Program-made: the position numbers and the translations under genes | Notes under the pieces: generated by a model | What the model saw: the letters and a program-made list of their open reading frames with translations, nothing else | Told to the model about the DNA's origin: nothing | The model's database searches: none | In this document: positions 7,514 to 21,819 of the stretch, in pieces | Layout of the letters: each line of letters starts with the position of its first letter | Numbering within the stretch: the first letter of the stretch is position 1 | Assembly: GCA_903925015.1 (NCBI GenBank) | Contig: CAIYDY010000088.1 | Location: 1-34,139, forward strand | DNA length: 34,139 nucleotides | Reading direction: 5' to 3' | Source of the DNA: an uncultured Acidobacteriia bacterium | GTDB lineage: Bacteria; Acidobacteriota; Terriglobia; Bryobacterales; Bryobacteraceae

Positions 7514-7543
7514 TTGACAGCCTAGCCGGGGTCTTGCTACTAT
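7514..7543 (+). promoter_or_regulatory. Sigma-70-type promoter of the receptor-QHNDH operon
   Basis: A perfect -35 TTGACA (7514-7519) is followed after 18 bp by TACTAT (7538-7543), which matches TATAAT at 5 of 6 positions. Transcription would start near 7550, leaving a leader of about 180 nt before the GTG at 7731. The sequence CAGCCTAGCC occurs twice, at 7518-7527 (overlapping the -35) and 7574-7583. That could be an operator pair, but the spacing of 56 bp is not otherwise supported. Confidence 0.65.
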
Positions 7544-7552
7544 CACAGAACT

Positions 7553-7571
7553 TGGTACGCAGGAAGTACCA
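7553..7571 (+). promoter_or_regulatory. Hairpin at the 5' end of the operon leader
   Basis: TGGTAC (7553-7558) and GTACCA (7566-7571) form a perfect 6-bp stem with a 7-nt loop, starting within a few bases of the predicted transcription start. It may stabilise the 5' end of the mRNA or act as a protein-binding site. There is no T-run, so it is not an intrinsic terminator. Confidence 0.4.
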
Positions 7572-7664
7572 GGCAGCCTAGCCCCACGTTCCATAGACGC
7601 GGGCCCCACCGTCCACCGTCAGGACACTTTTCGATCCACGTCCAGCTCCCCGTCGTCCGCCCCC

Positions 7665-7730
7665 GGTTTGGGTGGCGCGGTCTTCTGGACCAAACCTCAA
7701 CCATTTTCTCTTCTCTTCTGGAGGTGGGTT
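7665..7730 (+). promoter_or_regulatory. Possible switching leader around the receptor ribosome-binding site
   Basis: GGTTTGG (7665-7671) can pair perfectly with CCAAACC (7690-7696) across an 18-nt loop. ACCTC (7694-7698), overlapping the second arm, is complementary to GAGGT (7721-7725), part of the GGAGGTGGG Shine-Dalgarno of the receptor gene. The two pairings are mutually exclusive, so the RNA could hide or expose the ribosome-binding site. This is seen by eye only. The 5-bp pairing is weak. Confidence 0.3.
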
Positions 7731-10700
7731 GTGAATAAAAGTGTATTGACTCTCAAGATTCTGCCGCTCGTCATGGCGATGGCTTTTGTTTCGCCTGGGT
7801 TCGGGCAGTCCACATATGGCTCCTTCGTCGGAACAGTCGCCGACGCTTCCGGAGCCGTTCTCCCAACGTGCGTTGTGAGCGCGATCAATAAAGATACCGC
7901 CGCCCAGCGCAAAACCGTAGCCGGTCCAGACGGCAGCTATTCGCTCGTAAACATGGAACCCGGCAATTATGAAATCGAGATCGAATCGCCCGGCTTCCAA
8001 AAAGCGGTATTCAAGGGCCTGCAACTGGCATCGCGCCAGACCCTCCGCGTCGACGCATCCTTATCGGTAGCCACCCAGACCCAAACCGTGAGCGTCAACG
8101 AAGTGGCCGATTCCATCATTACCACCGACGTATCCAGCATCTCGTCCACCAAGACGGGCAAGGAGCTTCTGGACCTGCCCATCGCCATCGGTTCGCGCGG
8201 CGGCGGCTCCACCAGCCCCATTTCGACCCTGACAACCCAGGCGGGTGTGCAGACCGACGGCAGCGGCAATATTTCCGTCGCCGGTGCCAAGCCCTCCATG
8301 TTGTCCGTCAGTATCGACGGCATCAGCAGCGTCAGCCCCCGCAACAGCTCCCCCATCAGTGAACTTTTTCCCTCCTTCGGTGCGATCGCGGAGATCCGGG
8401 TGAGCGAGATCAACAACGCCGCGGAGTTCGGTGGTGTCAGCGATATCACAACCACGTCGCGCGGGGGGACCAACCGATACCACGGCGGCATCTTTGAAAA
8501 CGTCCAAAATACGGCATTCAACGCCCGGAACCTGTTCAGCAGCACAGTGCCGAAACTGGACATGAACGATTTCGGCGGATACGTCGGCGGCCCGGTCAAC
8601 GTGCCGGGCGTGTACCACGGCAAGGACAAGACATTCTTCTTCGCGAGCTATGAAGGCTTGCGGCTTGCCAAGGAGTCCGTGCTCAACCAAAGTGTGCCCA
8701 CCCCCGCCCTCCGCGCTGGAGACCTGTCCGCCTACAAGGCGTTCAAAGACCCGCTCTCGGGGAGCCCGTTCCCGGGGAACATCATTCCGGTGTCCCGGAT
8801 TTCCCCCATCTCGCTGAAGGCGCTGGACATCTACTACCCCCTACCGAACACTGGCGCGCCGGGTGCGCTTTCGGGCAACTACGCGCAAAACTTCCCCACC
8901 CCAATCGCCAGCAACCAAGGCGACATCCGGCTGGACCAGACCATCAGCTCCAAGCAGTCCGCGTTCGCCCGGTTCACCTACAAGCGCCGAGCCGTTCTGA
9001 CCGCTCCGACAACCTCCGTTTTCGCCGGTGCCACCAACGCGCCGGAGAATGATTTCGGCCTGACGGCCGCCCACAACTTCGTGATCAGCTCGCGGTTGAT
9101 CAATGAGGTCCGAGCCGGATTCAACGGCATCCATTCAGCCTCCGGGAACAAGACGGTCGCCACCGCCACCATCAACGCTCTTGGGCTGACAGGCATCCCC
9201 GATCCGCCTCCCGGCAGCGGCGGCCCGTCCTTTGCGATCACCGGCTTCCAGACCGGAGCTTTCGGGGCGTCCTCCATCTCAAGGGGCGACACCGCTCAGG
9301 TTCTCGACAACCTCACCTTCATCAACGGTCGCCATACCCTGAAGCTGGGCGGCGACTACCGCCACATGACAGCCTTTTTCAACAACGTTTTCGCCAGCAA
9401 CCGGGCCAGCACCTACACCTTCAACAACTCGGTCACCAGCGGATTGATCGGCAATGCCTACGCATCGTTCCTGCTGGGCGTGCCCGACTCAACGGGCGTG
9501 GCCACGGTCAAGAATGGAGATACCTCCTCCTACGGCAATTCCTACGCCTTCTACGTGCAGGATGATTGGAAGGTGACCTCCCGGCTGACCGTCAACTACG
9601 GTTTGCGCTGGGAATACCACCCGCCGTTCAACGACAAGCTCAACAATCTGGCCAACTTCCTCACGGACTACACTTCGGTGGTCAATGGCGTGACGGTGCA
9701 CGGCGCGGTGGTGGTGCCGGATGCGGGCATGAAGTGGATCAACCCGGATTTCGCGGCATCCATTGCGCCGACGCCAATCATCACGGCCACCAAGGCCGGG
9801 ATTCCGCAGAGTCTCCACTACTCGTCCAAGACCGGTTTCGCTCCCCGCATCGGCTTCGCGTGGCGTCCGTTCGGCAACGACAAGACAGTCATCCGGGGCG
9901 GCTACGGCAAGTACGTCGAAACCCTGCTCAGCGCCCTGATCACGGCAGGTTGGGCCGTGGCGGCCAGCGAGGTTGGTTCGTACACGAATAGCATCGTGAA
10001 CGGTAAGCCCGCCTTTGCCTTCCCCTATGCTTTCCCGTCCAATTTGTCCCAGCCGGGCGTCGCCACCTTCGAGTATTCAAGTGCCCTACATTATAAAGAT
10101 CCATACGTGCAGCAGTGGAATCTGACGTTGGAAAGGGACTTGGGCTGGCAGACGGCGTTGCGCGCCAGCTATGACGGAAGCCATGGCTCCGACATAGGCT
10201 ACAGCATCAACGTGAACCAAGTTCCGGCGAACACCAGTGGATTCAACTCCGTGAAGAACTCGGCTCCATACCCGATCTGGGCGCACATCACGCAATACGT
10301 GAACGGCGCGCGGACCAATTACAACGCCGCCACCTTTGCGTTGAACAAGCGGTTCTCGAAGGGTCTGCAGTTCCAGAATTCCTACGTTTTCGCCAAGAAC
10401 CTCGGCAATGGAGCGGGTTACGCACCGACAAGCTTCACGGGCGAGGCGGGAGGTCGCGTCACCGATCCGCAGAACATCGGCTTGGATTACGGCAATGTGG
10501 CTTTCACGCACCGGCACCGGTTCCTGAGCACCTTCGTCTATGAGTTGCCGTTCGGTCGCGGGCACACCTTCCTGAACACGGCAAACCCGCTGGTGGAGAA
10601 AGTAGTTGGGGGCTGGCAGCTTTCGGGCGTTCTGCTCATGCAGACCGGACCCTTCCTGACGGTTACGGCATCGGGTGCCGACCCGCTGGGAACGAACTTT

Positions 10701-11087
10701 CCGAATTTGGAAGGTGCCGGTCGCGCCGACATCGTGGCAGGCGTCTCTTCCCTGCCCAGCAGTCAGACCATCCGCAACTGGGTGAATCCGGCCGCCTTCG
10801 CGATTCCGGCCAATAACATCGGACGGGGCGGGAACTCGGCCATTGGTTCCGTGGTCGGGCCGGGGACACAAGCGGTTTCGATCTCGCTGTTCAAGACGGT
10901 CAAGCTGATGGAGTCGGCATCCCTGCAGTTGGGCTGTGCGGTTTCCAACGCTTTCAACCACCCCAACTACGGGTCACCTGCCTTGAACCTCAGCAGCGCA
11001 TCCAGTTTCGGGCAGATCACCAGCCTGCAGTCGCAGGAAAATGGCGGCCCGCGCAGTCTCCAGATAACCGGGAGGATTACATTCTAA
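7731..11087 (+). CDS. Oar-like TonB-dependent outer-membrane receptor with carboxypeptidase-regulatory-like domain
   Basis: This 1118-residue outer-membrane protein probably imports or exports a bulky substrate. It begins with a signal peptide (VLTLKILPLVMAMAFVSPGFGQ). A CarboxypepD_reg-like beta domain follows (GSFVGTVADASGAVLP, TVAGPDGSYSLVNMEPGNYE, about residues 28-115). Next come a plug-like region (VSNI-type segment GNISVAGAKPSMLSVSIDG and GGTNRYHGGIFENV) and a long beta-barrel ending in a terminal Phe (SLQITGRITF). This is the Oar layout typical of acidobacteria. GTG 7731 is chosen because GGAGGTGGG lies just upstream. The open frame reaches back to 7668 without a signal peptide. Its stop is 2 nt before the alpha-subunit ATG, so it is the first gene of the amine dehydrogenase operon. 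An amine-related ligand is inferred from context only. Confidence 0.92.
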   Translation: MNKSVLTLKILPLVMAMAFVSPGFGQSTYGSFVGTVADASGAVLPTCVVSAINKDTAAQRKTVAGPDGSYSLVNMEPGNYEIEIESPGFQKAVFKGLQLASRQTLRVDASLSVATQTQTVSVNEVADSIITTDVSSISSTKTGKELLDLPIAIGSRGGGSTSPISTLTTQAGVQTDGSGNISVAGAKPSMLSVSIDGISSVSPRNSSPISELFPSFGAIAEIRVSEINNAAEFGGVSDITTTSRGGTNRYHGGIFENVQNTAFNARNLFSSTVPKLDMNDFGGYVGGPVNVPGVYHGKDKTFFFASYEGLRLAKESVLNQSVPTPALRAGDLSAYKAFKDPLSGSPFPGNIIPVSRISPISLKALDIYYPLPNTGAPGALSGNYAQNFPTPIASNQGDIRLDQTISSKQSAFARFTYKRRAVLTAPTTSVFAGATNAPENDFGLTAAHNFVISSRLINEVRAGFNGIHSASGNKTVATATINALGLTGIPDPPPGSGGPSFAITGFQTGAFGASSISRGDTAQVLDNLTFINGRHTLKLGGDYRHMTAFFNNVFASNRASTYTFNNSVTSGLIGNAYASFLLGVPDSTGVATVKNGDTSSYGNSYAFYVQDDWKVTSRLTVNYGLRWEYHPPFNDKLNNLANFLTDYTSVVNGVTVHGAVVVPDAGMKWINPDFAASIAPTPIITATKAGIPQSLHYSSKTGFAPRIGFAWRPFGNDKTVIRGGYGKYVETLLSALITAGWAVAASEVGSYTNSIVNGKPAFAFPYAFPSNLSQPGVATFEYSSALHYKDPYVQQWNLTLERDLGWQTALRASYDGSHGSDIGYSINVNQVPANTSGFNSVKNSAPYPIWAHITQYVNGARTNYNAATFALNKRFSKGLQFQNSYVFAKNLGNGAGYAPTSFTGEAGGRVTDPQNIGLDYGNVAFTHRHRFLSTFVYELPFGRGHTFLNTANPLVEKVVGGWQLSGVLLMQTGPFLTVTASGADPLGTNFPNLEGAGRADIVAGVSSLPSSQTIRNWVNPAAFAIPANNIGRGGNSAIGSVVGPGTQAVSISLFKTVKLMESASLQLGCAVSNAFNHPNYGSPALNLSSASSFGQITSLQSQENGGPRSLQITGRITF

Positions 11088-11089
11088 AT

Positions 11090-12913
11090 ATGCCCAGCAG
11101 AAGTAAGGTACTTGCACTCGCGGCTACAATCGGGCTCCTTGCCTCGGCTCCCGTCAGCTACGGACAGGGCCGGGGAGGCGGACGCGCCGGTGGAACGGCT
11201 GCCCGCACGGGTCCGGCAGTGGAATCGGAGCCGGGGATTCCCGTCACAGACCCGCTGACCATCGCCAAGTGCGCCAGTTGCCACACCAAGGACGACAAGG
11301 GCAATCTGAGCCGAATCTCCTGGACCCGCACCACTCCCGAGGGCTGGCAGGAGGCGATCAAGCGCATGGTCCGCCTCAATGGTCTGACCCTCCAACCCGC
11401 TGACGCCCGCATGATCGTGAAGTACCTGAGCAACAACCACGGACTGGCTCCGGAGGAAGCCAAACCGGTCATGTATATGACCGAGCACCGGATTCAGGAT
11501 GAGGCGAATCCGAATGAATCGGTGCGTTCCACCTGCAACACCTGCCACGCGCTGGGTAGGCCGTTCCAGTGGCACCGCACCAAAACGGAATGGACTCTGC
11601 TGGCGGATATGCATTCGGCGCTGTATCCTCAAGCGGATTCGGCATTCCGACGCAATGGCTTCGGACGCGGTGGTGCCGGGGCTGCTGCTGGCGGAGCTGC
11701 GGGTGGTGGTGGTTTCGGTGGTGCTCCTGCCGTGGCGGCTGCCCCGGCTGCCCCCGTTTCCCTCGACATCAGCCTCGACTTCTTGGCCAAGAGCTACGGC
11801 CTTCACACTCCCGAATGGGCAGCTTGGAAGGCCCGGATGCGTACTCCCAAGCTGGCTGGAAAATGGCTCGTCTCGGCGCACGTCCCCGGCAAGGGAAACT
11901 ACACGGGTGAGCTAACCGTGACCGCCGGTCCCACGGAAGACGAGTTCAAGACCGCACTGAAGATGCAGCCCGTCCTCGGTGGTGCCGCAATCTCCCGCAC
12001 AGGCACTGGCTTGGTCTACACTGGCTACTCTTGGAGGGGCCGGTCCGCAGGGGCCACCCTGCCTGCCAAACCCGCTCCGGATGACCTCAATCGAGAAATG
12101 CGCGAGGCGATGTGGATCTCGCCGGACCAGACTTGGGCTGAGGGCCGCTGGTTCTGGGGGGAGTATTCCGAGTTCGGCGTCGATGTAAAGCTCCGCAAGG
12201 CGTCCGCGGATCCCCAGCTGCTCACCTTGGACCACCCTGCCCTCAAGGCTGGATCGTCGGGCCAGCGCGTCAAGATCATCGGCAACTCGCTCCCGGCCCA
12301 GGTGAAGGCGTCGGATCTGGAATTCGGCTCCGGCGTGACCGTCAAATCGATTGTTTCGCACACCGCTACGGAGATTGTCGCCACGGTCGATGTGGCTGAG
12401 AAAACCGCTCCCGGAAAACGCGATTTGGTGTTGGGGTCGTCTATATTGGAAGGCGCCTTGGCCGTATACGACAAGATCGACTACATCAAGGTGATGCCTG
12501 AAACCGCCCTTGCCCGGCTCGGTGGCGACGAGAAGGACGTCCATCCCCGTGGCTACCAGCAGTGGGAGGCAATCGCCTTTAGCAGCGGCGCGGACGGCAA
12601 ACCGCGCACCGCCGACGATGTGGAGATTGGTCCCATCGACGTGACCTGGTCCGTGGAGGAGTTTTACGCTGTCCTCGGCGACGACGACAAGGAATTTGTC
12701 GGCAGCCTGAGCAACACCGGCCTGTTTACCCCGAATATCGATGGCCCCAACCCGCAGCGCAAGTTCGGACGCAACAACTACGGCGATGTATGGGTTGTTG
12801 CAACCGCCAAGAACGAGAAGGACAAGGACGGCAAGCCGCTCAACGCCAAGTCCTATCTCATCGTCACCGTACCGACCTACATCCGCTGGGATCAACCCGA
12901 GGTTTCCCGATGA
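11090..12913 (+). CDS. qhpA: Quinohemoprotein amine dehydrogenase alpha subunit (diheme)
   Basis: The alpha subunit of QHNDH carries two c-type hemes that accept electrons from the CTQ cofactor in gamma and pass them to a periplasmic acceptor. The 607-residue precursor has a Sec signal (about 1-26), then heme motifs CASCH (61-65) and CNTCH (149-153). The C-terminal part forms the Ig-like/beta domains (LAGKWLVSAHVPGKGNYTGE; LKAGSSGQRVKIIGNSLPAQ; TWSVEEFYAVLGDD). Known alpha subunits are near 500 residues. The excess is explained by a Gly/Arg-rich mature N-terminus (27-41) and a Gly/Ala-rich insert at about 189-223 just after the heme domain. ATG 11090 is 2 nt after the receptor stop, and its TGA overlaps the qhpD ATG (ATGA). 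The identity is strengthened by the adjacent qhpD, gamma and beta genes. Confidence 0.93.
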   Translation: MPSRSKVLALAATIGLLASAPVSYGQGRGGGRAGGTAARTGPAVESEPGIPVTDPLTIAKCASCHTKDDKGNLSRISWTRTTPEGWQEAIKRMVRLNGLTLQPADARMIVKYLSNNHGLAPEEAKPVMYMTEHRIQDEANPNESVRSTCNTCHALGRPFQWHRTKTEWTLLADMHSALYPQADSAFRRNGFGRGGAGAAAGGAAGGGGFGGAPAVAAAPAAPVSLDISLDFLAKSYGLHTPEWAAWKARMRTPKLAGKWLVSAHVPGKGNYTGELTVTAGPTEDEFKTALKMQPVLGGAAISRTGTGLVYTGYSWRGRSAGATLPAKPAPDDLNREMREAMWISPDQTWAEGRWFWGEYSEFGVDVKLRKASADPQLLTLDHPALKAGSSGQRVKIIGNSLPAQVKASDLEFGSGVTVKSIVSHTATEIVATVDVAEKTAPGKRDLVLGSSILEGALAVYDKIDYIKVMPETALARLGGDEKDVHPRGYQQWEAIAFSSGADGKPRTADDVEIGPIDVTWSVEEFYAVLGDDDKEFVGSLSNTGLFTPNIDGPNPQRKFGRNNYGDVWVVATAKNEKDKDGKPLNAKSYLIVTVPTYIRWDQPEVSR

Positions 12914-14358
12914 CCGCAACCGCAATGCAAACGTATACCCTGGGCGAATTCCACCAGTTCGAAGGGGGCGGACGACGCTTCCTGTATCTGGTACCAGCCG
13001 GAGCTATTTTCGAGATGGACGAAGCGGTGGCAACCGTGATCGGACTCCTCAAACAAGGCCGCGCCGCCCACGACGACCTCGTGGGCCGGGTGGCCGCAAA
13101 GGGCTTCTCGTTTGCCGATGCCGACGAACTGGTGACGGAACTATCCCGAGCCCGCGTCATCGTTGGCGAGGACTACGTGAAAGCGCCCCTCGATCCCCCG
13201 CCCGCAGATTTTCCGTTGCAAAGTCTCGTCATGAACCTGACCAACCAATGCAACCTCTCCTGCACTTACTGTTACGAGTTCGGTGAGGACAAAGTCGCCA
13301 CACCCGAAGGCAAGCCCAAATTCATGGACCTGCCCACGGCCAAGGCCTCCGTCGATTTCCTCCTTTCGCAATCCAGCGGTCGGAATACGGTACACATAAC
13401 CTTTTTCGGCGGCGAGACATTGATGAACTTCCCGCTCCTGAAGCAGGTGGTGACCTACGCCACCGAGCGCGCCACAGAGCAGGGTCGGGGCATCGATTTC
13501 AGCCTGACCACCAATGCCACGCTGCTGACGCCTGCCATCATCGAATTCCTCTCGGAAAACAAGATCGGCGTTACCGTCAGCATGGACGGTCCTGCGGATT
13601 TGCACGACAAACTCCGGGTATTTTCCAACGGCAAGGGCAGTTACGAGATGATCGCCCCCCGTGTGAAGGCGCTCATCCAAGGCCACCGGACCCGGCCAAT
13701 CACCGCGCGGGTGACGCTCACCAACGCCGTTACGGATGTTCTGCGTATCTACAAGCACTTGAAGCACGACCTCGGCTTCCATGAGGTTGGCTTCGCGCCG
13801 GTGACCACCTCGCCGGATCGGCTCTACTCGATCAACGAGCGCGGCATGGATGGCGTCCTCGACGACTTCCACAAGCTGGCCGACGAATATCTCGAATACG
13901 CCCTCCGTGGCGAAATGCACGGATTTTCCAACGTCAGCGACACGATTGCCGAACTCATCCAGGGTGTGAATAAATCCCACCCTTGCGGCGCGGCGCTGGG
14001 CCTCCTGGGCGTCGGCCCCTCCGGGGACATCGCGCCCTGCCACCGGTTTGTCGATTCCGACACCCATTCCCTCGGCAACATTGCTACCGGCGTGGACCGG
14101 GAAAAGCAGGCCGACTTCCTCAACCGCGGGCACGTCAACAACAAGTACGACTGCCAAACCTGCTGGGCCCGTCCGCTTTGCGCCGGAGGCTGCCACCACG
14201 AAGCCTTCGTCCGCTACGGCGACACCGGCCACGCCAATCTCCACTATTGCGACTGGATTCGCGATTGGACCGACACCTGTTTACGGATCTACGGCACCAT
14301 CAGTGCCCACAATCCAGAGTTCCTCGAACAATTTGCCGAAAGGAAGGCACTGAATTGA
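12910..14358 (+). CDS. qhpD: Radical SAM/SPASM thioether-forming maturase of the QHNDH gamma subunit
   Basis: QhpD introduces the intra-peptidyl Cys-to-Asp/Glu thioether bonds into the unfolded gamma subunit in the cytoplasm, using S-adenosylmethionine. The 482-residue protein (known QhpD is about 476) has an N-terminal RRE-like region (1-95), the radical SAM cluster motif CNLSCTYC (Cys114, Cys118, Cys121), FFGGETLMNF as the GGE motif, and a SPASM domain with Cys359, Cys377, Cys415, Cys418, Cys424, Cys428 and Cys447 for two auxiliary [4Fe-4S] clusters. ATG 12910 overlaps the alpha stop (ATGA); Met6 is an alternative start. The TGA at 14356 overlaps the TTG start of gamma. The position between alpha and gamma matches the proteobacterial cluster. 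Confidence 0.95.
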   Translation: MTATAMQTYTLGEFHQFEGGGRRFLYLVPAGAIFEMDEAVATVIGLLKQGRAAHDDLVGRVAAKGFSFADADELVTELSRARVIVGEDYVKAPLDPPPADFPLQSLVMNLTNQCNLSCTYCYEFGEDKVATPEGKPKFMDLPTAKASVDFLLSQSSGRNTVHITFFGGETLMNFPLLKQVVTYATERATEQGRGIDFSLTTNATLLTPAIIEFLSENKIGVTVSMDGPADLHDKLRVFSNGKGSYEMIAPRVKALIQGHRTRPITARVTLTNAVTDVLRIYKHLKHDLGFHEVGFAPVTTSPDRLYSINERGMDGVLDDFHKLADEYLEYALRGEMHGFSNVSDTIAELIQGVNKSHPCGAALGLLGVGPSGDIAPCHRFVDSDTHSLGNIATGVDREKQADFLNRGHVNNKYDCQTCWARPLCAGGCHHEAFVRYGDTGHANLHYCDWIRDWTDTCLRIYGTISAHNPEFLEQFAERKALN

Positions 14359-14732
14359 AACACCTGAAAAGCCTGAACAGAAAGGCCCGGCGGATCGACG
14401 GCATCGTGTCGTCGATGCAGGTCGCGGCGGCAAAGCAAGCCGCTGGCGATCCGCTACTCGACGAAGACATCGTCGCCCTGCAGAACCAGCCGCAGCAACG
14501 CCCGCACGTCCCCATGGGTTGCGCGCTCGCGTTTTCACCGGGTTGGGAAGTGGATTCCGCCGGTGGGACCGCCGGACTCTGCCAGCCGGTCGAGCGCGAC
14601 ATCTACGACTGCTATGTCACGTGCTTCTGGCCCGCACAGGTTCCGGACCATCTCAACAATTACCCCGATTGGGCGAGCAAGTGCGCCACGGCTACCAAGG
14701 ACTGGCGCAACTTGGATTTGGTCTTCCCATAG
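14355..14732 (+). CDS. qhpC: Quinohemoprotein amine dehydrogenase gamma subunit (CTQ-bearing, cross-linked)
   Basis: This 125-residue precursor becomes the catalytic gamma subunit. All cross-link positions known from the Paracoccus/Pseudomonas enzyme are kept with the same spacing: Cys56-Glu65, Cys76-Asp82 and Cys90-Asp98 for the three thioethers, and Cys86 with Trp92 for cysteine tryptophylquinone. Asp82 matches the catalytic base. Hallmark blocks are SPGWEVDSAGG, LCQPVERDIYDC, FWPAQVPD and DWRNLDLVFP. Residues 1 to about 49 would be leader (MKHLKSLNRKARRIDG at the start), roughly 20 residues longer than the 28-residue leader I recall for Paracoccus. Cys110 is an extra cysteine. Translation starts at TTG 14355, overlapping the qhpD stop (TTGA), with AAGGAAGG upstream. 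No in-frame ATG precedes residue 21. Confidence 0.93.
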   Translation: MKHLKSLNRKARRIDGIVSSMQVAAAKQAAGDPLLDEDIVALQNQPQQRPHVPMGCALAFSPGWEVDSAGGTAGLCQPVERDIYDCYVTCFWPAQVPDHLNNYPDWASKCATATKDWRNLDLVFP

Positions 14733-14776: not shown

Positions 14777-15886
14777 ATGAAACGACTACTGGCGTTGTTT
14801 GCGATGACGTGCGCCGTTTTGTGCGCAGGCACCCTTTTCAGCGGCTCCTACCCGAATGTGATCCTCGTAATCGATGAGGCGCAGGGGAAGGTCGTCGACA
14901 CCATCAAGCTGGAGACGGGTCTCCCGACCAATATCCGGATGTCGCATGACAAGAAGCTGCTATATGTGTTCACCAACGACCACTCGGGCTTCGAAGTCGT
15001 GGACATCGCCTCCCGCAAGGTCCTGAGCCACTTCGTGTTGAACGATTCGACCCACAAGTACCGGACCCAGGGCGGTGCTCCCGATCCCCAAGGCAAGTTT
15101 CTTTACGCCACCACCACCAAGTACTCCAAGCTGATCGACCGTTATGAGATCGGCAAGGCGCAGTATTCGATCATCGATATCGCGCAACAGAAGATCGTGA
15201 AATCGGTGGACCAGCCAACCGAGCCCAGCCCGGGTGAGGCGGGTGCTGCTGGTGGTGGGGGCGGCGGCGGTGGCGGACGCGGCGGCGGGTTTGAAGTTTC
15301 GCCCGACGGCAAGTACCTCTACCAGTTCGGTGCCAACGTGAAGGTGCTCAAAGCGGAGGATTTCAGCGAGGTGGAAACGATCCCGCTCGGCTTGCCGGAC
15401 TCCCCCAACGCGGAGGGTCTCGCCATCGCCGGTACCCAAGATGGCTTGGGCCAGGCCGACCAGCGCGTCTCGCTGTTCACGTACTCCGATCCATTCGTTC
15501 ACAACAAGGTGTTCGGTCTGGCGACCTTTGACCTCAACAAGCGCAAGTTCGACTTCAAGCCAATCGGTCCGGCACCTATGGCCATGACCTATCTTCGTGT
15601 CGCTCCCGACATGAAGGAGGCTTACTCCGTGATCGTCAACGGTACGGGCGGCAACAGGCGCTGCGAGTTCTGGGCGATTGATGTTCCAACCACCAAGCTT
15701 GCCCGGACTGCTGAGGTTCCGTGCCGTTCCCGGTTCAGCTTCGGCATGTCCGCCGATGGCAAGAAGCTGTATATGTACGGCGCTGGTTATGAAATCGAGG
15801 TGTACGACGCCAAGACGCTCAAATTGGAAACGATTTGGGATCTTGGCCATGACATGACCATGAGTGGGTTGGTCACGCTGCCTTGA
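14777..15886 (+). CDS. qhpB: Quinohemoprotein amine dehydrogenase beta subunit (beta-propeller)
   Basis: The beta subunit is a seven-bladed propeller that, with gamma, forms the amine-binding active site in the periplasm. The 369-residue precursor has a Sec signal (MKRLLALFAMTCAVLCAG) and repeated blade-like segments such as YPNVILVIDEAQGKVVDTI, SGFEVVDIASRKVLSHF, YSIIDIAQQKIVKSV, KYLYQFGANVKVL and KKLYMYGAGYEIEVYDAKT. A Gly-rich insert (GAAGGGGGGGGGRGGG, about residues 153-172) breaks the propeller between blades and is not something I know from the Paracoccus protein. ATG 14777 follows AAGGAGG, a strong Shine-Dalgarno, 44 nt after the gamma stop. Its TGA overlaps the next gene's TTG start. 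Beta-propeller sequence alone is unspecific. The call rests on position and blade pattern. Confidence 0.9.
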   Translation: MKRLLALFAMTCAVLCAGTLFSGSYPNVILVIDEAQGKVVDTIKLETGLPTNIRMSHDKKLLYVFTNDHSGFEVVDIASRKVLSHFVLNDSTHKYRTQGGAPDPQGKFLYATTTKYSKLIDRYEIGKAQYSIIDIAQQKIVKSVDQPTEPSPGEAGAAGGGGGGGGGRGGGFEVSPDGKYLYQFGANVKVLKAEDFSEVETIPLGLPDSPNAEGLAIAGTQDGLGQADQRVSLFTYSDPFVHNKVFGLATFDLNKRKFDFKPIGPAPMAMTYLRVAPDMKEAYSVIVNGTGGNRRCEFWAIDVPTTKLARTAEVPCRSRFSFGMSADGKKLYMYGAGYEIEVYDAKTLKLETIWDLGHDMTMSGLVTLP

Positions 15887-17190
15887 GGCATGCCGTCGTA
15901 TTGCTTCTGTATGCGGCGCTGGGGTTTTCGCAATCCCGGCGCGAGCCCACGGTGGCGGCCCGCCAAGCCTTGGATCTACTCCTGGCTGCAAAGTATGCAG
16001 AGCTGCAGCCCATGTTGACTCCGTTGGGTCGCGAGAGGTTGACGCCGGAATTCCTGCGGGACAAAGTTGGTGTCGAGATCAAGAGCTTCGGTAACTTGGC
16101 CGGTGTCGGGACCCCGGTGACGGCGGTCGAAGGCAAAAACACCCTGGTCAGCTTTCCATGCCGCTTTACCGCGACAACGGTAAATATCCAGCTCACAGTC
16201 AATGACGCGTCGCAGATTGCGGGGCTTTACCTACGTCCGGCGGAAGCGCCCCTGCCGCCGCAACGCCAGCAGCCCTCCTATAGCAATAGGGCCCGGTTCG
16301 CCGAGCGGGAGGTTTCCATTGGAATCGATCCTTGGAAGCTGGGCGGTACCCTGGCCATGCCGAAGGGCGCGGGTCCATTTCCGGCAATCGTGCTGGTGCA
16401 CGGCCCAGGCCCGAACGACCGCGACGAGACACTCTACTCCAACCGTATTTTCAAGGATTTGGCCGAAGGGCTGGCCTCGCAGGGGATTGCGGTTTTGCGC
16501 TACGACAAGCGCACCAAGGTGTATGGGGAGAAGATGGCCGACCTCGATTACACCGTGGAGCAGGAAACGGTTGCCGATGCTGTGCAGGCTGTGGCGTTCC
16601 TGCGGTCGCAGCCTGGCATTGATCCCGGACGCGTCTCATTGCTCGGCCATAGCCTTGGCGGTTATCTCGCTCCGCGCATTGCGGCCAAGGACTCAAAACT
16701 AGCGGGTATCATCCTGCTGGCGGCCAACGCGAGGCCGATCGAGGACGTAACATTGGACCAGTTCACCTATGTGGCGAAGCTTGGCGGCGCATCCGCTCCG
16801 GAAGTACAGAAGCGGTTGGAGTTATTGAAGGGCGAGGTTGCGAAGGTAAAGTCGTTGGGTCCCGGAAAGCAAAATCCGCCGGTCGTGATGGGGCTCCGTA
16901 GTACCTATTTGCTGGATCTGAAGGGCTATGATGCGCCTGGCAGCATCAAACGGACGGGTCTACCTGTTCTGGTGTTGCAAGGGGAGCGCGACTTCCAAGT
17001 GACCATGGCGGATTTCAGCCTTTGGAAAGCCGCTTTGGGAGCTGCGGCGACTTACAAAGCCTATCCAGCCCTGAACCACCTGTTCATAAGTTCCCAACAG
17101 AAGAGTACTCCAGCGGAGTACCGCGTTCCAGGCAATGTAGCTCCCGAAGTGATAGCGGACATCTCAGCTTGGGTAAAACGCGCAAAATGA
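15883..17190 (+). CDS. Secreted alpha/beta hydrolase with N-terminal DUF3887-like domain
   Basis: This 435-residue exported serine hydrolase starts with a signal peptide (RHAVVLLLYAALGFSQ). A DUF3887-like region follows (about 25-115, AARQALDLLLAAKYAELQPM). The hydrolase fold has the oxyanion motif VLVHGPGPNDRD, the nucleophile elbow GHSLGG (Ser257), Asp370 in GERDFQ, and His399 in ALNHLF. It would hydrolyse an ester or amide in the periplasm; the substrate is unknown. The TTG at 15883 overlaps the beta stop (TTGA), the same overlap type seen between qhpD and gamma. Its TGA overlaps the next gene's ATG. It is thus tightly embedded in the amine dehydrogenase operon, although not part of the classical set, and might release or process amine substrates. 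Confidence 0.87.
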   Translation: MRHAVVLLLYAALGFSQSRREPTVAARQALDLLLAAKYAELQPMLTPLGRERLTPEFLRDKVGVEIKSFGNLAGVGTPVTAVEGKNTLVSFPCRFTATTVNIQLTVNDASQIAGLYLRPAEAPLPPQRQQPSYSNRARFAEREVSIGIDPWKLGGTLAMPKGAGPFPAIVLVHGPGPNDRDETLYSNRIFKDLAEGLASQGIAVLRYDKRTKVYGEKMADLDYTVEQETVADAVQAVAFLRSQPGIDPGRVSLLGHSLGGYLAPRIAAKDSKLAGIILLAANARPIEDVTLDQFTYVAKLGGASAPEVQKRLELLKGEVAKVKSLGPGKQNPPVVMGLRSTYLLDLKGYDAPGSIKRTGLPVLVLQGERDFQVTMADFSLWKAALGAAATYKAYPALNHLFISSQQKSTPAEYRVPGNVAPEVIADISAWVKRAK

Positions 17191-18485
17191 TGAACCGTCG
17201 TCAATTCCTTGCCCTCGGCGCGGGTCTTCCCCTGGTAAACGCCGCCGAAGCGCCAGACCATACGCTGCGCATCAGCGAAGTGACCGTGGATCTTGGCCGG
17301 AAGCATACGGTCAAGACTCTGGCTTACAACGGCCAGGTTCCGGGTCCGCTGCTCCGGATGAAGGAAGGGCAGCCGACCACGGTCGATGTGGTGAATGAAA
17401 CCCGCGACCCGGAGATGGTCCATTGGCACGGCTTCCATATTCCGCCGGAAGTGGATGGGGCGCACGAGGAAGGCACCCCGATGGTGCAGGGGCGCGACCG
17501 GCGTTCCTATTCCTTTGTCCCGACGCCCTCCGGAACGCGCTGGTACCACACCCACGCGATGGCCGGGCACAACCTGAAAATCGGCAGCTATTCGGGTCAA
17601 TTCGGGATGGCGATTGTCGAGCCGAAAGAGAATCCGGGCCGGTATGACCTTGAGGTTCCGATCCTGCTCCATGAGTTTGATCCGTACTTTGCGGCCGCCA
17701 CCGACATGGACCTGACCTACAGGCTCTTCACGGTGAACGGCAAGATGCTGGGTTCGGGAGAGCCCGTCCGGGTCCGCCCCGGCCAAAGGGCTCTCTTCCG
17801 CATCGTCAATGCCAGCGCGACTTTGGAGCATACCCTGGCACTGCCCGGACACACCTTCCGGGTGGTAGCGCTGGATGGAAACGCTGTGGCCTCGCCCCGA
17901 TCGGTGCCGACCGTGCGGTTGAGCCCCGGCGAGCGGATTGACGCTGTTGTGGAGATGAAGGCACCGGGCGCGTGGATCTTTGGCGAGGTGGATGCTGCGC
18001 AGCGGAATGCGGGTGCCGGGATTGTCGTCGAGTATTCGGGGTCGGTAGGCAAGCCGCAGTGGACGGCTCCGCCTGCTTTCCGATGGGACTACAGCCTGTT
18101 TGGCACCGCCGCCGAAGCGCCAAAGTCCGATGTGCGGATTCCGTTGGTAATCGAGCCGGGAAAGAACGGCAATCTCTGGGCGATCAATGGAAAATCATGG
18201 CCGAATACGGACGAGATCGTGCTGCGTCCGGGTCGTAGAAACCGGTTGGTCTTTGAGAACCGAGCCGAGATGGACCACCCCGTACATCTGCACCGCCACA
18301 CCTTTGAAGTTGTGGTCCTGGCAGGAAAGCCAATGTCCGGCGTGTTCAAGGACGTAGTCTTGGTTCCGGCCAAACAGACGGTGGAAGTGGAAGTTGCGCA
18401 GGTCGCCCCGGGTCCGTCCTTGTTCCACTGCCACCAGCAGTTTCATATGGATTTTGGGTTTATGGCCCTGATGCGCTCCGAGTGA
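17187..18485 (+). CDS. Tat-exported multicopper oxidase (laccase-like)
   Basis: This 432-residue three-cupredoxin-domain multicopper oxidase couples one-electron substrate oxidation to reduction of O2 to water. A twin-arginine signal (MMNRRQFLALGAGLPLVNAAEA) exports it folded. Copper motifs are HWHG (79-82), HTH (121-123), HPVHLH (364-369) and HCHQQFHMDFGFM (414-426). Cys415, His364 and His420 make the type 1 site. The residue ten after the Cys, where CueO-type enzymes have Met, is Phe425, as in high-potential laccases. There is no Met-rich insert as in CueO. ATG 17187 (or 17190) overlaps the hydrolase stop. It is last in the operon, and its 3' end overlaps qhpE tail-to-tail by 43 bp. A role as terminal electron acceptor for the dehydrogenase is an inference. 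Confidence 0.93.
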   Translation: MMNRRQFLALGAGLPLVNAAEAPDHTLRISEVTVDLGRKHTVKTLAYNGQVPGPLLRMKEGQPTTVDVVNETRDPEMVHWHGFHIPPEVDGAHEEGTPMVQGRDRRSYSFVPTPSGTRWYHTHAMAGHNLKIGSYSGQFGMAIVEPKENPGRYDLEVPILLHEFDPYFAAATDMDLTYRLFTVNGKMLGSGEPVRVRPGQRALFRIVNASATLEHTLALPGHTFRVVALDGNAVASPRSVPTVRLSPGERIDAVVEMKAPGAWIFGEVDAAQRNAGAGIVVEYSGSVGKPQWTAPPAFRWDYSLFGTAAEAPKSDVRIPLVIEPGKNGNLWAINGKSWPNTDEIVLRPGRRNRLVFENRAEMDHPVHLHRHTFEVVVLAGKPMSGVFKDVVLVPAKQTVEVEVAQVAPGPSLFHCHQQFHMDFGFMALMRSE

Positions 18486-19078
18486 TCCCTGGCCAGAAAG
18501 CCGGACACATTCGCGACCGCAAAGCTGATGCCTTGGAGGTTTCGTTCCACCGGAATTCCAGGTGCGGGCCGTGGGTACCCGGATGCCGCGAGTCCGTTGG
18601 CAACGCGCCGATACTGGTCGCGGGGGCATGTCAAATCCAGCAGGACCCCCGAAACACCCGGCATGCAGCCCGGAAACTGGGGGATTCCGTCCGATTCAAG
18701 CGCAGCCACCAGCTGGACTCCGGCCTCAGCCGCGCGGGCGACCAGAGGGGCGAAATGGGCGGCGTGGGCCGGGTTGGCCGTGCCGAGGCTCAGATTGACG
18801 ATGTCCATCTGCTCGTCCAAGGCCCATTCAATTGCCCGCAACAGGCACCGGGCATTGGTGCGCAGTGATTCGTGGAAGACTTTCACGGCGAAGTAGTCGG
18901 CATCGACACCGACGGCCTTCTCCTGGATTGCCGCCATTACGGCTGTTCCGTGGCCGAGATGGTCCAGATATTCGCCCTCGGTGACAATCCCGGCTCCAGT
19001 GATCGAGACGCCTCCTGCCACGCGTCCGATGTGGGGGTGGGCGGGGTTGACGCCGCTGTCGATCACCGCGACGCGCAT
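18443..19078 (-). CDS. qhpE: Subtilisin-like serine protease QhpE (gamma-subunit leader peptidase)
   Basis: QhpE removes the leader of the cross-linked gamma subunit. This compact S8 protease of 211 residues has the triad Asp7 (VAVIDSGVN), His43 (DHLGHGTAV) and Ser185 (GISFAVANVSG), with no signal peptide or propeptide, as expected for a cytoplasmic processing protease. The usual oxyanion-hole Asn region (AAxNxG) reads AALESDG (125-131), without Asn. ATG 19078 gives MRVAVIDSG, has GGGAG just upstream and overlaps the ABC transporter's 3' end by 16 bp. A longer in-frame start at 19132 would add an unneeded Arg-rich extension. The identity as QhpE rather than a generic subtilase rests on its place with qhpF and qhpG beside the dehydrogenase operon. 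Confidence 0.88.
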   Translation of the reverse strand: MRVAVIDSGVNPAHPHIGRVAGGVSITGAGIVTEGEYLDHLGHGTAVMAAIQEKAVGVDADYFAVKVFHESLRTNARCLLRAIEWALDEQMDIVNLSLGTANPAHAAHFAPLVARAAEAGVQLVAALESDGIPQFPGCMPGVSGVLLDLTCPRDQYRRVANGLAASGYPRPAPGIPVERNLQGISFAVANVSGFLARDHSERIRAINPKSI

Positions 19079-20712
19079 ATCTCCCGCATTTGGGCGCGTC
19101 CGCCTTGTAGAGTTATCAGGTAGTCCGCGCATTCGGCCAACGCCGGGCGATGGGTGATCACAATGAGGGTCGCGTCCGGCAAGGCTTGGCGCAGGTTGAC
19201 GGTGACCAGCTTCTCCATCTCCGTATCGAGGGCCGAGGTGGGCTCGTCCAGAATCAGTACGGACGGCTTGCGGATCAAGGCACGGGCGAGCGCGACCCGT
19301 TGGCGCTCGCCCACGGAAAGCGCCATGCCGCGCTCCCCAGTCGGGGTCTGGTAGCCCTGCGGCAATCGGGCGATCAATTCGTCGAGACCCGCCAACCGGC
19401 CCGCTGCCGCAATCTGCTCGACCTGGGCCGAGGGGTCTCCCCAGGCGATGTTCTCCGCGATGGTCGCGTTGAAGAGATACGGCGACTGGTCCACCAGCAG
19501 GACATGGCGGCGCAAGTCGGCGAGCCGGAGGTCGCGCAGGTCCAGCCCGTCGATCAGGATTCGGCCTTGATCGGGGTCCAGATAGCGTGTGAGCAGATCG
19601 GCCAACGTCGACTTTCCCGTGCCGCTGGGCCCCAGAATGGCGCAGAAGCTTCCGGCGGGGATGGTGAGGGAGATGTCATTGAGTACCGCATTCCGGTCGT
19701 GCCGAAGGGAGACCGATTCAAGCCGGATCGAGTCCAGAATGCCCCCCAGGGGCAACGCACCGGGCTTTTCGACCACTTCGGCGGGTGTGTCGAACAATTC
19801 GAACAGGCGCGCGAGCGAGACCCGCGCCGAGGCGAGGCTTGCGGTCAGGCTCATTAGGTTTTGGACCGGCGACAGCAATCGCGTGTGGTATGCCATGAAT
19901 GCCACAAGCGTACCGATCGTCATTTCACCCTGGATGATCATCCAGCCGCCGTAGAGGAATACCGTCGAGGTGGCCACCGCCAGAATTGTGCCGGGAACCG
20001 CCCCGGTGAGGAAGGAGGTCATTTGGACCTCCAGCATTGTGTCGATAAACGAGTCGTTGCGCTTTCTGAACCGCTCGGCCTCGTGCGCCCCGGCGTGCAG
20101 CGACACCACGACCCGCATGCCAAGGATCGATTCCACGAAGAAGCTCCCCAAATCCGCACTGCGCTCCCGTAGGGTTTTGGTGAGGGCGGTCAGCTTCCGC
20201 TGGTACTTGAGAAACGCCAGCACACAGGCCGGGATCAGGATCACCCCTGCGAAGAAGAGTTTCCAGCTGAGCCAGAGCATCATCACGATGGCACCGACCA
20301 GGAACGCGATGTTGCTGAGCACCGAGAGTACGGCGTCGGCCGAGACTCGCTGCACCTCGCCCGCGTCGTTGTTCAGGCGCGACATCAAATCCCCCAGCCG
20401 GTTTCCGGCGTAGAATCGCGGCGAGAGGGTTTGCAGATGGCGGAACAACGCCAGTCGCAAGTCGAAAAGCATGGCCGCGGAGATACGGACATACCGATAG
20501 CTGGAGAGGATGTTCAGGACGAAATTCAGGACTGTGGCCCCGAACAGCAGGGCGGTAATCCATGCCAGTGCCCGCATGTCCCTGGGCATCAGGGCGCGGT
20601 CGATCAGGAGCCTCGAAACGTAGGGCTGGAACAAGCCCAGGGCCGTGGCACCGAGGCTGATGGTCAACACCAGCAGCAATTGACGGGTGTACGGACGAAG
20701 GTATGCCGCCAA
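19063..20712 (-). CDS. qhpF: ABC exporter QhpF (fused membrane-ATPase half-transporter)
   Basis: This 549-residue half-transporter has six predicted membrane helices in residues 1-300 (for example QLLLVLTISLGATALGLF and LSNIAFLVGAIVMMLWL), followed by an ATPase domain. Walker A is GPSGTGKST (361-369), the Q-loop Gln409, the signature LSVGE (465-469), Walker B VLILDE (485-490) and a VITHR switch. It would work as a homodimer. In the Paracoccus cluster QhpF exports the processed gamma subunit, and the linkage to qhpE and qhpG supports that role here. The start is TTG 20712. No ATG or GTG lies between it and the upstream in-frame stop at 20758, so the start is tentative. It precedes qhpE with a 16-bp overlap. 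Confidence 0.88.
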   Translation of the reverse strand: MAAYLRPYTRQLLLVLTISLGATALGLFQPYVSRLLIDRALMPRDMRALAWITALLFGATVLNFVLNILSSYRYVRISAAMLFDLRLALFRHLQTLSPRFYAGNRLGDLMSRLNNDAGEVQRVSADAVLSVLSNIAFLVGAIVMMLWLSWKLFFAGVILIPACVLAFLKYQRKLTALTKTLRERSADLGSFFVESILGMRVVVSLHAGAHEAERFRKRNDSFIDTMLEVQMTSFLTGAVPGTILAVATSTVFLYGGWMIIQGEMTIGTLVAFMAYHTRLLSPVQNLMSLTASLASARVSLARLFELFDTPAEVVEKPGALPLGGILDSIRLESVSLRHDRNAVLNDISLTIPAGSFCAILGPSGTGKSTLADLLTRYLDPDQGRILIDGLDLRDLRLADLRRHVLLVDQSPYLFNATIAENIAWGDPSAQVEQIAAAGRLAGLDELIARLPQGYQTPTGERGMALSVGERQRVALARALIRKPSVLILDEPTSALDTEMEKLVTVNLRQALPDATLIVITHRPALAECADYLITLQGGRAQMREICASR

Positions 20713-20826
20713 CCGCCTATAAGTGCTCCAAGATGCAGTGGTGGAAGAGTCCGTAGTCTATGTTTAGCAAACTTGGGGGCCTTAGTCCAAGCGCAAAGTT
20801 TTGATCCTCCGTATCAGCGGAGACGT

Positions 20827-21819
20827 TTACGAGACCGGTTCAAGGTCGAAGCCGTTCAGCCGGAAGGCGTTCGCGGGCGGGGGCTGGCGGTTGCACCAGG
20901 CGATTCCGTCACACGCAGCTTGGGTTTGTTCTTTCCACCAGGGGCTTTCACCGCCGGACTCGTAGAATCCGCGGCACATTTCCAGATGTTTTCGGAAGCC
21001 AGCCATCAGTCGGCTCTGGTAGTGCCTCAGCAACGCGGATTGGTCGCCGCCACTTGCAGCCGCACGGAGGACAGCGCTGGCGAGGATTGCTTCCCGGACG
21101 GCATGCGCGGTTCCATCGCCGCAAATCGGATCAAATGCCATGGCGGCCGATCCGCACGCCAGCCAGTCAGGTCCGCAGACCGGCGACAGCATCCGCGGGG
21201 AGCAGGGAAAGCGGACACCGTGTGATCCAATTCGTTCGATTTGGCCGACTACCAGCTGACTGTTTCCCAGCATTTCGACTGGATCGCCGCCCACTGCGAT
21301 TAGCCATGCGGAACCGGGAGCGATGGTGATGACGAAGAGCCAGCCATTCTCCGTCGACTCGATCCAGCAGGCGTTGGCGGCGGCGGAGTCCCTCAGCTGG
21401 ACGGCAACGGCGGAAGCCATTCGGGAGCCGAAGCGCTGATCCATCGCACATGTCGAGGGTGCCGAGGCCGAGTGGATGGTCCAATCCGGGACCAGGTCGG
21501 TTGGATCGGCATTGCCTAGTCCGGCAAGCAGTTGCTCTTCTGAAACGACCACGGCCGAATGTTCCAGTGTGACGGGAAGTGCATCGGCTCCCCACTGGAC
21601 AATCCGCTTGGCAATTCGTGGCAGTCCATGAAGCAGGTCGGGGTTGTCAAAAGCATCGCGGATCAGATTGGCGGCGCCATCGGCGATCATGATCGCGGGT
21701 ACCGACGGTCGTGGAGTCGCTTCGAAGGAAACCTGCCAGTTTCCTCGGCCCAAGAGATGCGCGCAGCAGCGGGATGCTATCCCCTCCCCGTGAATCCTGA
21801 CTCGCCGCCCATCCAGCAT
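20827..21819 (-). CDS. qhpG: FAD-dependent monooxygenase QhpG (tryptophan hydroxylation for CTQ)
   Basis: QhpG is a single-component flavin monooxygenase that hydroxylates the gamma-subunit Trp on the way to the quinone. The 330-residue protein starts with a Rossmann beta-alpha-beta, RRVRIHGEGIASRCCAHLL, where GxGxxG reads GEGIAS with Ser as the third position. It continues with RPSVPAIMIADGAANLI and later the second FAD motif WLACGSAAMAFDPICGDG (about 216-233), which parallels the GDAAxxFDPxxGxG motif of halogenase-like flavoproteins with Ser in place of Asp. ATG 21819 begins just before the Rossmann strand; no good Shine-Dalgarno is visible. The open frame runs on upstream to about 22518 but has no family features. 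It is 114 bp upstream of qhpF. The specific function rests on context. Confidence 0.82.
   Translation of the reverse strand: MLDGRRVRIHGEGIASRCCAHLLGRGNWQVSFEATPRPSVPAIMIADGAANLIRDAFDNPDLLHGLPRIAKRIVQWGADALPVTLEHSAVVVSEEQLLAGLGNADPTDLVPDWTIHSASAPSTCAMDQRFGSRMASAVAVQLRDSAAANACWIESTENGWLFVITIAPGSAWLIAVGGDPVEMLGNSQLVVGQIERIGSHGVRFPCSPRMLSPVCGPDWLACGSAAMAFDPICGDGTAHAVREAILASAVLRAAASGGDQSALLRHYQSRLMAGFRKHLEMCRGFYESGGESPWWKEQTQAACDGIAWCNRQPPPANAFRLNGFDLEPVS

Follow-up and report, generated by a model that had tools for sequence, protein, structure and literature searches.

The window analysed here, a 34,139-nucleotide stretch of DNA from a soil bacterium of the Acidobacteriota, contains a full set of qhp genes for a quinohemoprotein amine dehydrogenase (QHNDH): the genes for alpha, QhpD, gamma and beta, together with those for QhpG, QhpF and QhpE. 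The genes of the cluster, each with the evidence for its assignment, are as follows.

7731..11087, plus strand: Oar-type outer-membrane receptor (Pfam carboxypeptidase-regulatory domain and PF25183 barrel; tree; co-occurrence)
11090..12913, plus strand: qhpA, QHNDH alpha (TIGR03908; match to 1jmx_A/1jju_A; two CxxCH haem motifs)
12910..14358, plus strand: qhpD, radical SAM/SPASM thioether-forming maturase (TIGR03906; conserved cysteines)
14355..14732, plus strand: qhpC, gamma precursor with a long leader (NF037958; alignment to 1jmx_G/1jju_C; 102-row alignment)
14777..15886, plus strand: qhpB, beta-propeller subunit (TIGR03907 below cut-off; weak 1jmx_B match; position common to other qhp loci)
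15883..17190, plus strand: secreted alpha/beta hydrolase, EstD-like (Pfam Hydrolase_4; NF041096 below cut-off; recurrence after beta)
17187..18485, plus strand: three-domain multicopper oxidase, MCO (Pfam Cu-oxidase, Cu-oxidase_2 and Cu-oxidase_3; PDB matches; alignment)
18443..19078, minus strand: qhpE, subtilisin-like leader protease (NF049966 just below cut-off; catalytic motifs)
19063..20712, minus strand: qhpF, ABC exporter (Pfam ABC_membrane and ABC_tran)
20827..21819, minus strand: reduced qhpG, 330 aa (NF049967 below cut-off; AF2 model; Foldseek 7ctq_A; changed GD motif)

A sequence-only reading of this DNA had placed the three subunits and QhpD, QhpE, QhpF and QhpG in one stretch, and profiles, locus position and co-conservation agree with it. 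The order that it gave for the plus strand is borne out at the junctions: the Oar stop codon (11085-11087) is separated by 2 nt from the alpha ATG (11090), alpha and qhpD overlap in ATGA, qhpD and gamma in TTGA, beta (starting at ATG 14777) and the hydrolase gene also in TTGA, and the hydrolase and MCO genes in ATGATGA. The qhpG-qhpF-qhpE genes do run in the opposite direction, on the minus strand and convergent with the Oar-to-MCO unit, with a 43-nt tail-to-tail overlap between MCO and qhpE. The receptor lies directly before alpha as described, but its frame had been started at 7514, and the best start is GTG 7731 behind GGAGG. The absence of a regulator resembling qhpR is likewise borne out by a Pfam scan of 20 window proteins, none of which is a DNA-binding regulator; nor is there an aldehyde dehydrogenase among these 20, and in both respects they differ from the qhp genes of Paracoccus denitrificans and Pseudomonas putida.

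The alpha and gamma candidates both fall within the QHNDH families, over the curated cut-offs (alpha 536.6 bits against 274.35 for TIGR03908, gamma 129.6 against 50 for NF037958), and QhpD scores 638.4 bits against 453 for TIGR03906; these three matches are far beyond chance. Alpha matches the solved chains 1jmx_A and 1jju_A and has two c-type haem sites, the CxxCH cysteines of which are present in 88/88 and 87/87 of the rows with letters there. The QhpD CxxxCxxC motif is likewise present in 94/94 such rows, and seven later cysteines in 91/91. Beta (71.4 bits, cut-off 223.2 for TIGR03907; weak match to 1jmx_B), QhpE (154.7 bits, just below the cut-off of 165 for NF049966) and QhpG are divergent and score under the cut-offs, so that their assignment also leans on place and co-conservation. 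A beta model derived from the window finds beta in 90 loci, and the Asp, His and Ser motifs of QhpE are present in 8/8 aligned sequences. QhpF has ABC exporter domains; its top NCBIfam match is MsbA, under the cut-off of that model, and no QhpF-specific profile is among the best 25 of the 192 families listed.

We regard it as highly improbable that the cluster is decayed or silent and yields no active enzyme. Such a state might be suspected from the three proteins under NCBIfam cut-offs and from the lack of a regulator among the 20 proteins scanned, but the frames are open throughout all cluster genes, residues needed for catalysis or ligand binding are retained, and the divergent forms recur, conserved, in many loci.

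The cluster shares the subunits, the alpha-qhpD-gamma-beta order and the QhpD/E/F/G set with P. denitrificans and P. putida (1jju, 1jmx), as outlined in PMC7876137. This order is present in 88 of the 91 loci possessing all four genes. The sequence-only reading had noted that the CTQ enzyme is described mainly from proteobacteria; a complete QHNDH in an acidobacterium is supported, gamma is found in 29/396 genomes of the phylum, and the operon is already described as widespread, in >1300 species (PMC7876137). The extended layout is no isolated case, as it recurs in the genus of the window and in other acidobacteria, where Oar, hydrolase and MCO are conserved neighbours of qhp genes; the refuting condition set in the sequence-only reading, that they are never co-located with them, thus does not apply. 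For the locus counts and a second tree, 13 duplicate and 3 non-qhp loci were dropped first and 20 loci were dropped before clustering, with the near-duplicates L046/L047, L060/L081 and L072/L074/L075 retained.

CTQ is one of few cofactors built from a protein's own residues, and to our knowledge QHNDH structures have been solved from two bacteria only. The window gamma has the four cysteines, Glu/Asp crosslink partners, Trp and leader of the P. denitrificans and P. putida gammas, and when aligned to 1jmx_G/1jju_C it keeps all known crosslink and CTQ residues (Cys37/Trp43 and three Cys-Asp/Glu pairs). Unlike those systems, the window has a fifth gamma cysteine, a longer leader, a reduced QhpG, and the extra Oar, hydrolase and MCO genes. 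The fifth cysteine and the reduced QhpG are points beyond the sequence-only reading. In an alignment of 102 gammas, which includes at least six repeated loci (L120-L124 repeat named loci; L054/L097), crosslink partners are present at C+9, C+6 and C+8 in 102/102, and the fifth cysteine, six residues before an Asp, in 93, the exceptions being nine classical-type gammas. In 1jju/1jmx numbering these residues are Cys61 and Asp67, and both solved enzymes have Ala in place of the cysteine.

Gammas of this clade might carry a fourth thioether, Cys61-Asp67, such that QhpD would set four crosslinks rather than three, although we consider this doubtful. The AF2 model of gamma is poor (mean pLDDT 45.8) and was set aside, as it cannot place Cys61 relative to Asp67; it shows a low-confidence helix across this stretch, and since i/i+6 contacts are disfavoured within a helix the fourth crosslink is made less likely. 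A disulfide linking Cys61 with either alpha or beta also appears unlikely from the alignments, because neither subunit has an invariant extra Cys column: alpha has none beyond the four haem cysteines, and in beta one column is Cys in 38/84 rows. One QhpD cysteine, present in 84/91 rows, was considered as an exact tracker of Cys61 and rejected; it is Gly in four classical loci and in L084, L091 and L092, and the gammas of these last three have Cys61 despite the QhpD Gly. With the Cys61 clade, the number of crosslinks that QhpD is able to set becomes testable; qhp-bearing isolates with Cys61 include Edaphobacter modestus, Sphingobium algorifonticola and Acetobacter nitrogenifigens.

The window QhpG scores 61.1 bits against NF049967 (cut-off 240), which places it outside QhpG by that model; it is a QhpG-like protein of reduced form, with 330 residues against 432 for 7ctq, a difference of ~100. 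It resembles the peptidyl tryptophan dihydroxylase QhpG (7ctq) in gene context and in the overall fold of its AF2 model, which is confident (pLDDT 92.9) and has 7ctq_A as its best Foldseek PDB match (E 4.7e-17, TMq 0.76, rmsd 5.0), with many other flavoprotein monooxygenases matching nearly equally. The DPLSGNG loop of 7ctq reads DPICGDG in the window protein. GoxB and LodB, maturases of other CTQ enzymes, are weak matches (41.9 and 39.5 bits, far under the cut-off of 400), and neither LodA nor GoxA is among the 20 window proteins scanned. The Asp of the GD motif at the FAD site, present in 7ctq, is replaced by Ser, Thr or Ala in 23/23 aligned reduced QhpGs, and the third Gly of GxGxxG by Ala or Ser in the same 23. 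The latter change is not a hallmark of the reduced form, as the full-length proteins of L107 and L117 also have Ala.

These replacements and the shortened length could mean that the reduced QhpG has given up flavin hydroxylation and serves as a scaffold for QhpD and gamma, with tryptophan hydroxylation left to some other enzyme of this bacterium, and a different type of hydroxylase is present in sister loci (see below). We think this unlikely, the more so as the third-Gly change extends to full-length proteins. The model retains the QhpG-like fold, the reduced form is conserved and adjoins qhp genes, and the genome has no other QhpG over the cut-off, though another match (78 bits) outscores the window protein (58.5 bits in that search). 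The shrunken QhpG makes testable the minimum flavoenzyme able to dihydroxylate tryptophan.

Twelve sister qhp loci without QhpG contain an uncharacterised gene, X, and in 11 of them it adjoins a gene, U, for a UbiU-like hydroxylase; no locus was found with both QhpG and X. UbiU and UbiV are described as O2-independent hydroxylases (PMC6747719), with the cysteine pattern CXnCX12CX3C in UbiV. The U protein of a sister locus, which is not encoded in the window, is matched to E. coli UbiU by hhalign (E 5.8e-19) and retains the C-x6-C motif; three U proteins scanned score 89-96 bits with the UbiU profile (cut-off 440), and no PDB match was found for U. X was considered as a UbiV and rejected, as hhalign gave no match (prob 0.5), and it resembles UbiV only in size, place and cysteine spacing (C...C-x18-C-x3-C). 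Nor does X match U by hhalign (prob 4.6), or have a credible match in Pfam, NCBIfam or PDB; in the plasmid collection there was one partial match, to a Roseburia hypothetical protein (34% of the query, 31% identity).

Whole genomes with X were also searched for QhpG (E<=1e-9). A partial match of the reduced-QhpG type (model positions about 151-343) was found in none of nine genomes with X and was detected in the positive controls G187 and G225; it is also present in G865 and G866, whose loci have no module. Genomes with X do have long QhpG-model matches under the cut-off, up to 183 bits (G259), 162 (G863) and 130 (G745), against only about 200 bits for the two full-length QhpGs from this phylum that were scanned, so a distant full-length QhpG may be present elsewhere in these genomes. 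With QhpG reduced here, X and U present where QhpG is missing, and no locus with both kinds, hydroxylation looks modular, and we tentatively propose that tryptophan hydroxylation in CTQ biogenesis could be an exchangeable module: a classical QhpG, a stripped QhpG whose flavin site is altered, like that of the window, or, at sister loci, a UbiU-like Fe-S protein that with a new partner would make the quinone without O2. An Fe-S hydroxylase candidate where QhpG is missing makes such O2-independent tryptophylquinone formation testable. The reduced QhpG and the cluster's own receptor suggest greater variety in the qhp pathway than is apparent from the few examples studied.

The qhp-linked Oar receptors, 22 different sequences including that of the window, form one clade. 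In a tree of 52 rows a branch with SH-aLRT 100 sets the 23 linked rows apart from the rest, among them 17 paralogues of the same genome as the window; L040 and L214 are on one contig with one common Oar. Of 43 matches, the eight that scored under 300 bits were excluded, and 17 of 29 own-genome paralogue loci were used, the rest having no long enough frame on the strand that was read. Both this and the second tree are quick trees, arbitrarily rooted, with SH-aLRT as the sole branch support. An Oar relative at E<=1e-250 is present in 13/220 genomes of the class, and 12 of these have gamma, with the Oar within about 5 kb; these are 12 of the 27 gamma-bearing genomes (Fisher p about 1e-11, ignoring kinship), the other 15 having no Oar relative at this threshold. 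G359 has a tandem Oar pair without gamma, and tblastn found no qhp genes beside it in the 20 kb read. Receptors of the Oar kind are common, with 185 matches in the window's own genome, so that single adjacencies prove little. By its phylogeny and co-occurrence, the linked receptor is inherited together with the qhp cluster. Edaphobacter modestus and Paracidobacterium acidisoli are cultured strains in which it adjoins qhp genes.

The hydrolase scores 341.5 bits against NF041096 (EstD-like; cut-off 600), and its next-best match in its own genome is 36 bits. Read by eye, the MCO has a twin-arginine-like leader and Phe as the T1 axial residue; there is one other MCO place in the genome. The hydrolase and MCO genes follow beta in seven other loci, none of them titled as a cultured strain, with the hydrolase once elsewhere in L214, and both are absent from most qhp loci. 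Because Oar is missing from 15/27 gamma genomes and the hydrolase and MCO from most loci, none of the three is required for QHNDH. It could be that the qhp core works as in Paracoccus and that the three are co-transcribed passengers with no functional tie to it: many qhp loci of this phylum have none of the three, Oar-type receptors are very numerous in the genome, and both MCOs and EstD-like hydrolases are known from many unrelated functions. We hold this to be the less probable reading, though not a far-fetched one: the linked Oars are separate from the 17 paralogues, the class-wide co-occurrence with gamma is strong, and translational overlaps in a recurrent order tie the hydrolase and MCO to beta.

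From sequence, we think it probable that the cluster is a complete, working QHNDH system of lineage-specific type. Observations against a working system are that beta, QhpE and QhpG are under their cut-offs and that the reduced QhpG lacks one FAD-motif residue. By the known pathway, QhpD would make the gamma thioethers, the reduced QhpG would dihydroxylate the CTQ tryptophan, QhpE would remove the gamma leader and QhpF export gamma, the alpha haems would finish CTQ, and the three subunits would come together in the periplasm. The neighbourhood alone suggests, as in the sequence-only reading, a chain in which Oar may import the substrate amine itself or a conjugate too large to pass through porins, the hydrolase may cleave an ester or similar conjugate to free the amine, and QHNDH may deaminate it, with electrons perhaps passing from the alpha haems, directly or via a carrier, to the Phe-axial, high-potential-type MCO for O2 reduction. 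A receptor dedicated to the cluster suggests that, for some QHNDHs, the amines used need active uptake. A sister Oar on contig C158 was considered as part of a second CTQ system and rejected, as its neighbours, judged by eye, resemble genes for an aminotransferase and a reductase. In a proteobacterial branch, where part of the large ORFs was scanned, a canonical TonB receptor lies within 4 kb of qhp genes in 5/6 loci.

The sequence-only reading had proposed a complete quinohemoprotein amine dehydrogenase (QHNDH) system in an acidobacterium, and this is borne out: the cluster is genuine and conserved, an acidobacterial variant of a system already known. Its most consequential feature is that the part that builds the cofactor differs from that of the studied enzymes. 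The proteins named in that reading were scanned against Pfam and NCBIfam profiles; the alpha subunit, QhpD and the gamma subunit widely exceed the curated NCBIfam cut-offs, the beta subunit, QhpE and QhpG match the correct models with scores under the cut-off, and QhpF contains ABC exporter domains. The known chemistry of these four maturation proteins is taken from PMC7876137. The window gamma aligns with the solved structures 1jmx_G (E 3.7e-24) and 1jju_C (E 2.1e-23) and has, in their numbering, Cys7-Glu16, Cys27-Asp33, Cys41-Asp49 and the CTQ pair Cys37/Trp43. All 102 aligned gammas keep the four cysteines, and each has acidic residues at the correct distance from the crosslink cysteines.

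The source genome (6.33 Mb, 97% complete), of which the window is one entire contig, carries the genes as a unit in the order Oar-alpha-qhpD-gamma-beta-hydrolase-multicopper oxidase (MCO), with gaps of 2 nt between Oar and alpha and 44 nt between gamma and beta and overlaps at all other junctions; the MCO gene also overlaps qhpE tail-to-tail. The nearest named relatives are acidobacterial MAGs (QhpD identity 98% for locus L031 and 90% for L032, titled Bryobacterales). Two flanking stretches were also annotated.

Window 5631-7154, minus strand: PhoD-like phosphatase, upstream of the cluster
Window 22383-27448, beyond qhpG: a DUF1552 protein together with a large cytochrome protein of planctomycete type (DUF1587/1592/1588/1585/1595)

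The gamma family (NF037958) is present in 29 of the 396 phylum genomes scanned, in 27 of the 220 class genomes, and in none of 14 control genomes. Loci were assembled from 60 named loci found by a QhpD scan, 29 genome stretches and 24 further stretches, 12 of the latter being contigs already among the named loci as judged by QhpD. All four of qhpA, B, C and D are found in 91 of the 103 deduplicated loci, and 88 of these 91 share the A-D-C-B order. The literature on QHNDH and Acidobacteria, in the portions that we examined, does not describe an acidobacterial qhp operon. In a 100-row QhpD tree nine loci (L049, L051, L053, L058, L059, L060, L081, L082 and L130), with eight Pseudomonadota titles and one Novosphingobium plasmid, and including Sphingobium, Sphingomonas, Novosphingobium and Acetobacter, group together (support 100) within a larger branch of 35 rows (support 98) whose remaining members, the mistitled L054 excepted, are acidobacterial. 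This nesting points to transfer of qhp genes from acidobacteria to proteobacteria, as judged from a tree with an arbitrary root and with two of the titles being MAGs. L054, which has the same genes as L097, is titled as a Bordetella parapertussis MAG, very likely wrongly, since its length and the genes compared agree with those of an acidobacterial contig. Some genomes have two QHNDH sets close together that belong to different QhpD branches (L043:17278-21435, with L212, and L214:3247-14813).

The gamma subunit has a fifth cysteine at position 61 (window residue 110), where the 1jju and 1jmx gammas have alanine. It is present in 93 of the 102 gammas, a sample weighted towards this clade by the search for loci, which used the window's own QhpD and looked within its phylum. 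The nine gammas that lack it are classical in type and come from five loci of the class to which Sphingobium belongs and from Pseudomonas, Paracoccus, Cupriavidus and Leisingera plasmids. An aspartate follows at +6 in all 93, the same spacing as in the known Cys27-Asp33 crosslink, and the boldest reading is that Cys61 and this aspartate could form a fourth thioether. The aspartate is also found in classical gammas and thus has another role there, and the alpha and beta alignments show no invariant cysteine as a partner for Cys61. The thioether is no more likely than a free thiol or a local structural role for Cys61.

The window QhpG is a reduced form of 330 aa, and similar proteins occur in loci titled Bryobacterales and Acidobacteriaceae and in the proteobacterial branch (30 rows above 350 bits, the next row scoring 143). 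Its AlphaFold model (pLDDT 92.9, pTM 0.91) has QhpG (7ctq_A) as the top Foldseek match in the PDB (E 4.7e-17, TMq 0.76, 16% identity), with other flavoprotein monooxygenases just behind. The DPLSGNG loop of 7ctq is DPICGDG in the window protein, and in all 23 aligned reduced QhpGs the aspartate of the GD motif is replaced by serine, threonine or alanine. The third glycine of GxGxxG is likewise alanine or serine in all 23, but was dropped as a mark of the reduced form since alanine also occurs in some full-length relatives. The source genome has no QhpG match above the cut-off of 240; the best score is 78 bits elsewhere in the genome, and the window gene scores 58.5.

The 99 loci with near-complete QhpD divide, counting QhpG from 300 bits, into 31 with the reduced QhpG, 28 with a full-length QhpG (four of them classical), 12 with a gene that we call X, and 28 in which none of these is within reach. 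Two kinds of module never occur in one locus, an exclusivity that is more limited at the level of whole genomes. X (about 300 aa) directly follows qhpB in 10 of the 12 loci, and in 11 is adjoined by a second gene, U. Coordinates of the pair are given for six loci.

L062:12978-14923, X-U
L066:5260-7244, X-U
L095:11680-13654, X-U
L116:11559-13594, X-U
L226:11490-13399, X-U
L231:11512-13421, X-U

The pair is also found in L055, L064, L068, L092 and L220, and L063 has X without U. The X label requires nine changes on the QhpD tree, counted also against loci without a visible module, so that repeated gain or loss of X is probable. U is a Peptidase_U32 protein (115-117 bits in three proteins scanned) with UbiU and TrhP as its closest NCBIfam models, and aligns with Escherichia coli UbiU at E 5.8e-19 (hhalign). 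PMC6747719 describes UbiU-UbiV as hydroxylases that work without O2 and bind [4Fe-4S] clusters through CX6CX16CX38C and CXnCX12CX3C cysteines. U keeps the CX6C, and the cysteines of X are arranged as C...C-x18-C-x3-C. The libraries searched contain no credible relatives of X, and no paper in the literature library searched joins U32 proteins with tryptophylquinone or with amine dehydrogenase. X-U is a candidate for replacing QhpG independently of O2, and would give these sister loci a third kind of hydroxylation module.

The Oar receptor gene belongs to the qhp cluster in a large subset of loci. There are 185 Oar-type matches in the source genome (some falling in the same gene), the best paralogue being 38% identical, whereas the best segments of linked Oars from other loci reach 44-98% identity. 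Taking deduplicated loci with an Oar at least 44% identical gives 23, two sharing one Oar; in 13 of these (window included) Oar precedes alpha and points the same way, and in the others it is on the opposite strand or farther away. In a 52-row tree a branch with SH-aLRT 100 separates 23 linked Oars (22 different) from all other rows. At E<=1e-250 Oar is matched in 13 of the 220 class genomes, 12 of which are among the 27 with gamma (Fisher p about 1e-11, kinship ignored), and in these 12 the two genes share a contig within about 5 kb. The remaining genome, G359, has two tandem Oar genes (L217:5304-12575), one of them near the qhp-linked type, and no qhp gene was found near them in the 20 kb read. 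Of six loci examined in a proteobacterial branch, five have a canonical TonB receptor no more than 4 kb away, which in L051, L082 and L130 comes directly after qhpE. These receptors lend weak support to a receptor link because those three placements may reflect one event and canonical TonB receptors are common in sphingomonads.

The hydrolase and MCO belong to the cluster in a smaller subset than Oar, following beta in that order and in the same direction in eight loci: the window, L031 (where the sequence stops within the MCO), L032, L033, L035 and three contigs from genomes of the window's genus (L037, L043 and L057). Read by eye, the MCO keeps its copper ligands and has a twin-arginine-like start, and we propose that electrons could pass to it from the alpha haems. 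In fungal laccases a phenylalanine ten residues past the T1 cysteine goes with high redox potential; the alignment has phenylalanine at this place in all seven MCO copies that reach it and in the paralogue from the source genome.
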